Part shown: positions 19,334-21,938 of the stretch, piece by piece
How the letters are laid out: each line of letters starts with the position of its first letter
Position numbering within the stretch: the first letter of the stretch is position 1
Origin: Desulfohalovibrio reitneri
GTDB lineage: Bacteria; Desulfobacterota; Desulfovibrionia; Desulfovibrionales; Desulfovibrionaceae
NCBI RefSeq assembly: GCF_000711295.1
Contig: NZ_JOMJ01000003.1
Span: forward strand, 2,367,501-2,431,500
DNA: 64,000 nucleotides
Direction of reading: 5' to 3'
The notes under the pieces: model-generated
Seen by the model: only the letters and a program-made list of their open reading frames with translations
Database searches by the model: none
Told to the model about the DNA's origin: nothing
Translations under genes and position numbers: made by a program

Positions 19334-19370
19334 CTTGACACGGCATGTGAATCTTTATACCCACGATGGT

Positions 19371-19937
19371 ATGCTTGACCCCTCAAATAACCAAAAAGCC
19401 TCGGAATCCGGCAAAGCTCGCGATTACCTTGAGGAATGCCACATCCTGGGGTCGGGCGATCCGCTGGTCTGCTTTCTTCAAAAGATCTTGCGTGGGGCGG
19501 TGCGTGTACTCGCCGTCATCATGACGCTGGTCATCGTGTGGGGCTTGCTCGACGTTGGCTGGGTCATCTACCAGCGCCTCAGGGTGCCTCCGTATTTTCT
19601 CCTCAACATAAGCGACATATTGGCAACGTTCGGGGCCTTCATGGCCGTTCTCATCGCCATCGAAATTTTCGCGAACATTGTTGTCTATCTACAGTCCCAC
19701 GTCATACATTTGAGGCTGGTGCTGGCGACGGCACTCATGGCCGCGGCTCGGAAGGTCATCGTACTCGACTTCAAGACCGTTGAACCACCCTTCGTGTACG
19801 CACTCGGCGTAGTGATACTCGCTTTGGCGTTGGCGTTCTGGCTTGTTTCCAGAGTAAACACCTCCGGCACAAGCAGCCAATTGGAACTGGATGGGAGTGA
19901 ATACGTTGATGGAAACAGAGGCGGCGCGATAAAATAA
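19371..19937 (+). CDS. PsiE-like (phosphate-starvation-inducible E family) membrane protein, 188 aa
   Basis: After a 45-residue cytoplasmic lead, four membrane helices follow: VRVLAVIMTLVIVWGLLDVG, ILATFGAFMAVLIAIEIFAN, VLATALMAAARKVIVL and YALGVVILALALAFWLVSRV. The conserved charged spots of PsiE (IEIF, ARKVIVLD) are present. Function of the family is unknown. The ATG at 19371 has no clear ribosome-binding site; a TTG at 19335 is in frame but coincides with a TTGACA -35-like box. Base composition and codon use are less GC-rich than neighbours, and the gene sits inside a disrupted copy of the structured repeat, consistent with lateral arrival. Confidence 0.7.
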   Translation: MLDPSNNQKASESGKARDYLEECHILGSGDPLVCFLQKILRGAVRVLAVIMTLVIVWGLLDVGWVIYQRLRVPPYFLLNISDILATFGAFMAVLIAIEIFANIVVYLQSHVIHLRLVLATALMAAARKVIVLDFKTVEPPFVYALGVVILALALAFWLVSRVNTSGTSSQLELDGSEYVDGNRGGAIK

Positions 19938-21219: not shown

Positions 21220-21257
21220 AGTTTACACGCTGCACTGGAAGACAAGGGAGGAACTTC

Positions 21258-21467
21258 ATGTCCAAAATCGTCATCTACGGCAAGTCCGCCTGACCCCACA
21301 CCACCCGGGCCAGGTCGGCCCACCCGGACGCCGAGTACCGCGACGTCAAGGAAGACCCCAAAGCCATGGAGGAAATGCTCGAACACAGCGACGGACGGCG
21401 CGAAGTCCCCGTCATCGTCGAAGACGGCAAAGCCACCATCGGCTACGGCGGCACCTGAGGCGTTTAA
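21258..21467 (+). CDS. UXX-star glutaredoxin-like selenoprotein with two selenocysteines, 69 aa (two TGA read through)
   Basis: From the ATG (AAGGGAGGA upstream) the frame reads MSKIVIYGKSA-U-PHTTRARSAHPDAEYRDV and continues through REVPVIVEDGKATIGYGGT-U-G-V, then TAA. TGA codons fall at codon 12 and codon 67. With both decoded as Sec, the protein has a glutaredoxin/thioredoxin-fold start (beta strand, then U-P-H-T at the active-site position), the cis-Pro loop EVPVIV and a C-terminal U-x-x-stop tail. That combination defines the UXX-star (seleno)protein family, small redox proteins of unknown substrate. A SECIS-like hairpin follows each TGA at matching distance. Conventional gene callers would miss this gene. 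It is an independent unit with its own promoter and terminator. Confidence 0.88.
21291..21321 (+). promoter_or_regulatory. SECIS-like hairpin for Sec12 (TGA 21291-21293)
   Basis: Thirteen bases after the TGA, GGGCC (21307-21311) pairs with GGCCC (21317-21321) around the loop AGGTC. The loop begins 21 nt from the TGA. A GGUC in the apical loop is the element contacted by SelB in the E. coli fdhF SECIS. Confidence 0.7.
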
Positions 21468-21487
21468 TCAACCCGGCCGTGCGCCGG
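21456..21487 (+). promoter_or_regulatory. SECIS-like hairpin for Sec67 (TGA 21456-21458)
   Basis: CCGGC (21473-21477) pairs with GCCGG (21483-21487) around loop CGTGC. The loop begins 22 nt from the TGA, almost the same geometry as at the first TGA. It extends past the final TAA stop, so it is partly in the 3' untranslated region. Confidence 0.6.
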
Positions 21488-21520
21488 ATTAGCAGAAAAA
21501 CAAGTAATCAAACCTTCGTC

Positions 21521-21555
21521 CTTTCTTGCGGCGGGTTCAACCCGCCGCAAGAAAG
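21521..21555 (+). terminator. Hairpin after the selenoprotein gene
   Basis: A 15-bp perfect stem (CTTTCTTGCGGCGGG with its complement) encloses a TTCAA loop. It lies 53 bp after the stop and abuts the start of repeat R2. No long U-tract follows; GAAAG is next. Confidence 0.6.
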
Positions 21556-21938
21556 GAAAGATTTCGCCCTTCGGGCGACCAAGGGGCTGCGCGCCCCCTG
21601 GACCCTGCGGCAAAATAATTTTGCATTTGTATTCGCGGGATTGAGCGCGCCATGGGTATGCGTGGGAGCGCTCCGGCGAACCTGCGATTGTAGTGATTTC
21701 AAAGCCGTAAAAAGCCGCCCTGGCAGTTTGGCTTCAGATGCGTTCAACGCGGAATTGGGCTGATGTCCCTCCGGCCGCCACATGCCCGCACCACGCCCTC
21801 GAGCGAAGCGAGCGGTAAAATTTTTGCGGAAGGAGAATGAGGGCGTGGGAGAAAGAGGAAACCGCTTTTTTAAAAGGGGTTTTCTCCTTCTCCCACTGCC
21901 CTGAATCGCAACCCCCGCCAGCCACCTTCCATTCCCCT
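21554..21938 (+). repeat. Structured interspersed repeat, copy R2 (complete)
   Basis: A complete copy of ~385 bp: GGAAAGATTTCGCCCTTCGG hairpin, GGGGC-TGCGC-GCCCC hairpin, CAAAATAATTTTGCATTTGT box, then TTTGGCTTCAGATGCGTTCA, GAGCGAAGCGAGCG, the long hairpin (GTGGGAGAAAGAGGAAACC with GGTTTTCTCCTTCTCCCAC) and the tail CCAGCCACCTTCCATTCCCC. It fills the convergent gap between the selenoprotein gene and azlD. Any open frame within it is not credible as a gene. Confidence 0.85.

Follow-up and report, generated by a model that had tools for sequence, protein, structure and literature searches.

The window analyzed here, a stretch of 64,000 nucleotides from Desulfohalovibrio reitneri (contig NZ_JOMJ01000003.1, positions 2,367,501 to 2,431,500), carries on its plus strand a small gene of 69 codons plus a TAA stop (21258..21467), whose reading frame contains two TGA codons. 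The product is very probably a UXX-star selenoprotein of family 1, a single chain of 69 residues bearing selenocysteine (Sec) at positions 12 and 67; this judgment covers identity and two-Sec translation jointly, and not the chemistry. Just past the stop codon lies a hairpin for which comparison among homologues gives strong evidence of a natural bacterial selenocysteine insertion sequence (SECIS) situated in the 3′ untranslated region (UTR). The gene is thus a new member of an already catalogued family in which two Sec residues are normal. From the observations below, we infer Sec insertion itself as well as the chemistry of the protein.

When TGA is read as Sec, positions 21258-21467 translate without interruption into MSKIVIYGKSAUPHTTRARSAHPDAEYRDVKEDPKAMEEMLEHSDGRREVPVIVEDGKATIGYGGTUGV followed by the stop. 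The first TGA, codon 12 (21291..21293), occupies the active-site position of a UPHT motif, where the aligned homologues have Sec or cysteine (Cys). The second, codon 67 (21456..21458), is followed by GGC GTT TAA, so that its Sec stands two residues before the end (U-G-V-stop), with the TAA (21465..21467) three codons further on. Upstream, a Shine-Dalgarno-like ribosome-binding site, AAGGGAGGA (21244..21252), has the ATG five bases downstream. The continuous frame with its ribosome-binding site, which the first-pass annotation had proposed along with a UXX-star identity and a glutaredoxin-like character, stands, and the family assignment is clear. The protein scores 112.4 bits against NCBIfam NF041114 (UXX-star selenoprotein family 1, an equivalog model with a cut-off of 72; E=8e-33), the alignment running from residues 4 to 69 over profile positions 1-70 of 70 and including both TGA codons. 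It also passes NF041212, the Uxx-star family glutaredoxin-like (seleno)protein model (70.7 bits, cut-off 66), and the Pfam Glutaredoxin model PF00462 (36.3 bits, gathering score 22.9). To the full-length NF041114 score are added the Sec codon two residues before the stop, a second one at the active site (UxxT) and the Sec machinery in the genome. A 2026 review, citing the 2008 Global Ocean Sampling study, counts NF041114 among the two-Sec families (PMC13188914); it also goes by the name “Distant Grx-like protein 1” (PMC13188914; PMC9312934).

The two TGA codons are conserved. Besides the source genome, 17 of 58 related genomes encode the protein, in most cases with an in-frame TGA at each of the two sites, and homologues are also present in metagenome-derived genomes labeled Nitrospiraceae, Planctomycetota, Methylomirabilota, Acidobacteria, Armatimonadetes, and Deltaproteobacteria. 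The homologue set was drawn from the window's phylum together with these named loci, the two key columns being located by profile. All 101 homologues extending as far as codon 67 have TGA there, TAA and TAG being absent, in a collection gathered with family 1 profiles, outside which a Cys-ended branch may exist. None of the 101 has Cys in that column, and the one hit when Cys-ended frames were scanned for was an unrelated glutaredoxin. At codon 12, 79 of the 101 have TGA and 21 have Cys, the remaining one being unaligned there. Within a Planctomycetota/Brocadiales branch (L029, L040, L042, L043, L046, L051) the active site carries Cys, and Sec is found at the C terminus only. The C-terminal Sec is therefore the more conserved of the two, and indeed the fixed one, while the possession of both is the rule. 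This overturns one expectation of the first-pass annotation, namely that two Sec residues in so short a protein would be unusual: it is the usual state of family 1 (PMC13188914). Homologous domains were also seen in longer open frames of 200-500 codons (L064, L073, L086, L094), possibly because UXX-star-like domains have been fused there or because the frames read through by chance.

Can the cell make selenocysteine? The source genome encodes selA (603.5 bits), a full-length selB (352.8 bits), selD (341.8 bits) and a tRNA-Sec, or selC (82.5 bits), with a UCA anticodon according to ARAGORN, in agreement with what had been predicted from the gene alone. The selD gene (G000:C3:436642-437562; L023 about 1500-1530) contains an early in-frame TGA, close to its start; selenophosphate synthetase is thus probably one of the cell's own selenoproteins, which is a known arrangement. 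With selB and selC present and homologues aligning across both TGAs, neither of the two findings named beforehand as fatal to the identification, a genome lacking these genes or relatives failing to align, was encountered. In the tested set, selB accompanies the family in 15 of 17 carriers vs. 16 of 18 non-carriers, which makes co-occurrence uninformative; the two carriers without selB are fragmented assemblies.

Just nine bases of the gene remain after the second UGA, and a SECIS for it therefore has to lie past the stop codon. A candidate, hairpin 2, is found there: CCGGCCGTGCGCCGG (21473..21487; CCGGC-CGUGC-GCCGG), on the plus strand and wholly past the stop; its loop follows the second UGA at a distance of 19 nt. 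A published bacterial SECIS (bSECIS) model calls for a loop of 3-9 nt, a stem of 4-16 bp, a G within the first two loop bases, a distance of 16-37 nt from the UGA, and a minimum free energy of -7.5 kcal/mol or lower (PMC13188914); with its 19 nt spacing and -7.8 kcal/mol, hairpin 2 conforms to it. Averaged over 101 distinct homologues, the highest-scoring contiguous stem at this place reaches 17.5 vs. 8.8 when the downstream sequence is shuffled, and the full model is satisfied in 72 of 100 vs. 7.7% of shuffles, both controls preserving base composition but not dinucleotides. The stem reaches p<=0.05 in 83 of the 101. Among the 92 homologues with at least five pairs, the 5′ arm begins past the stop codon in 90, and a G occupies the first or second loop base in every one, although the search did not require it. 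Pairing among these 92 is partly circular, the stems having been chosen for their strength, but no such circularity affects a structure-blind MAFFT alignment of 89 sequences, in which RNAalifold places a five-pair helix at the same position. There, 84.3% of cells pair, vs. 29-46% when the 3′ arm is slid by 1-3 bases, and the helix covaries, its pairs being of GC, CG, UA, and AU types. Bacterial SECIS elements have been placed inside the coding region (PMC13188914) or are said to “often” reside there (PMC10778597), whereas hairpin 2 lies outside it; a coding location is typical, and no constraint of the model.

A second candidate, hairpin 1, sits inside the frame: GGGCCAGGTCGGCCC (21307..21321; GGGCC-AGGUC-GGCCC), on the plus strand, its loop 18 nt after the first UGA. 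It also agrees with the bSECIS model (18 nt spacing, -9.1 kcal/mol), but its conservation across the family is partial. Sec12 members have a raised stem score (12.8 vs. 8.3 shuffled), and Cys12 members do not (9.0 vs. 8.7); the coding constraint on A-R-[SE]-A confounds this pattern. The loops AGGUC and CGUGA recur at this place across homologues.

In the translation model that we propose, SelB with Sec-tRNA-Sec would be brought to the first UGA by the hairpin within the reading frame, and to the second by the 3′-UTR hairpin, lying just past the stop at a normal bacterial spacing. How, then, would the ribosome know which UGA to read and which to obey? The stop comes three codons past the Sec codon in 98 of 101 homologues, and it is TGA in 51, TAG in 28, and TAA in 22. 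About half of the homologues (e.g., L004, L007, L009, L017, L018, L028, L031) end in UGA-x-x-UGA, with nine bases from the Sec-UGA to the stop-UGA. Where the stop is UGA, the loop lies at 15-23 nt as counted from the Sec-UGA, but at 6-14 nt as counted from the stop-UGA. The latter distance is under the model's 16-nt minimum, so that spacing by itself could decide which of the two UGAs means Sec. That UXX-star genes carry a natural bacterial SECIS wholly in the 3′ UTR, and that distance alone parts Sec-UGA from stop-UGA, is nevertheless a combined proposal put forward tentatively, its chances being slightly short of even.

AlphaFold2, given 36 family sequences, predicts a structure (predicted local distance difference test, pLDDT, 94.6) with strands at residues 4-8, 26-29, 52-55, and 58-61 and helices at 13-21 and 34-43, that is, a beta-alpha-beta-alpha-beta-beta order without a final helix. 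The nearest folds are those of glutaredoxins and NrdH-redoxins (Z about 9, root mean square deviation 1.7-2.0 over 61-65 residues), and sequence profiles concur. The protein is thus predicted to adopt a glutaredoxin/NrdH-like fold which ends where glutaredoxins start their last helix. With Cys standing in for Sec, the alignment of 36 sequences is invariant at positions 12, 13, 46, 51, and 67; position 51, in a conserved VP motif, we take to be the cis-Pro position of the thioredoxin fold. In glutaredoxins, the GG loop preceding the last helix sits beside the active site, so that by analogy Sec67, within GG[ST]U, plausibly faces Sec12. Sec12, whose UPHT motif lacks the usual second Cys, would then pair with Sec67 in a resolving role. 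Our first choice is a selenium-based thiol/selenol redox protein built on a Sec12-Sec67 pair, a preference held with slightly less than even confidence. Somewhat less probable is that the two selenols bind a soft metal, a metalloid or a selenium species as its ligands, along the lines of the metal(loid) or selenium binding suggested in a review (PMC13188914). The missing CXXC motif and the retention of the C-terminal Sec even where site 12 is Cys speak for such ligands, while the clear match to glutaredoxins in fold and profile, and the absence of metal-resistance genes among the neighbors examined, speak against them.

Several observations weigh against this overall picture of a two-Sec redox protein served by two hairpins. 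Folded as single sequences, hairpins 1 and 2 are no more stable than GC-rich shuffles (z 0.30 and 0.22): single-sequence folding gives no signal, and that of the hairpins comes from comparison across homologues only. Hairpin 1 passes the strict model in just 7 of 79 homologues (shuffles 4.4%). No Cys-ended member was found to serve as a control set for the loss of hairpin 2 in Cys versions. Lastly, conserved neighbor genes were not found among the homologues except between close relatives, which leaves genomic context without a functional pointer.

UGA is a normal stop, and a hairpin following a stop can serve mRNA 3′ ends. Might only Sec12 be translated, with UGA67 a real stop and the 3′ hairpin acting in termination or mRNA stability? 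This is very improbable, for the codon 67 column holds TGA in 101 of 101 homologues, whereas three codons later any of TGA, TAG, and TAA serves as the stop; moreover, the 3′ hairpin keeps the loop and spacing features of a bSECIS, and the NCBI family model takes in the residues beyond codon 67. As for a decayed glutaredoxin gene with two nonsense mutations, which two in-frame TGA codons might at first sight suggest, it can safely be set aside, as the same two TGAs recur in dozens of genomes, spread over numerous genera and several phyla, in which the remainder of the frame is conserved as well, and the Sec machinery is complete.

The two-Sec gene is flanked by minus-strand genes on both sides, one for a tetratricopeptide repeat (TPR) protein upstream and an AzlD-like gene downstream. 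Beyond hairpin 2 comes a perfect 18-bp inverted repeat, CCTTTCTTGCGGCGGGTT-C-AACCCGCCGCAAGAAAGG (21520..21556; -35.7 kcal/mol and z -7.0 as RNA), which has no U tract and is present in one copy genome-wide. It is probably a terminator for the UXX-star gene, one shared with the opposite strand, or another mRNA 3′-end structure. A PsiE family (phosphate-starvation-inducible E) gene is found nearby (19335-19937 of the window, E 9e-37). An Rfam scan of the window gave no family at or above its gathering score, and no phage records matched the region.

The gene adds another example of a two-Sec protein which ordinary callers would split, and the existing NCBI models for the UXX-star family would find it. 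The covarying SECIS hairpin beyond the stop is the part of specialist interest, and more useful than an added family member. Gene finders that seek bacterial SECIS elements inside open frames only can miss C-terminal Sec codons of this kind. The family moreover supplies natural pairs of UGAs, nine bases apart and of opposite meanings; if distance does part them, these would allow the spacing rule for Sec insertion to be tested cleanly in a natural setting.

How does this locus compare with known systems? With NF041114, the window protein has in common its length, both Sec positions, the GG[ST]-U-x-x-stop end and the glutaredoxin-like domain, and in no respect departs from the family's norm. 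NF041212 describes its parent subfamily, but is broader, covering also proteins whose first site is Cys. UXX-star families 2 and 3 (NF041211, NF047338) and the HUGP/GUXX-star fusion (NF045501) share the same general architecture by name and through a weak profile match, although the window protein reaches just 38-40 bits against cut-offs of 97-325; a search of 297 genomes for family 2 gave zero members above cut-off. Glutaredoxin 3 and the NrdH-redoxins, including cGrx1 (7c10), resemble it in predicted fold at the Z given above, whereas the window protein has UPHT for CPxC, lacks the last helix and bears an extra C-terminal Sec. As to the hairpin, a SECIS past the stop is not described in the reviews as natural in bacteria, but an engineered arrangement of this type works in E. 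coli (PMC10778597). In both cases a C-terminal Sec would be served by a bacterial SECIS after the stop codon; the E. coli system is man-made, whereas the UXX-star arrangement appears to be natural and conserved.
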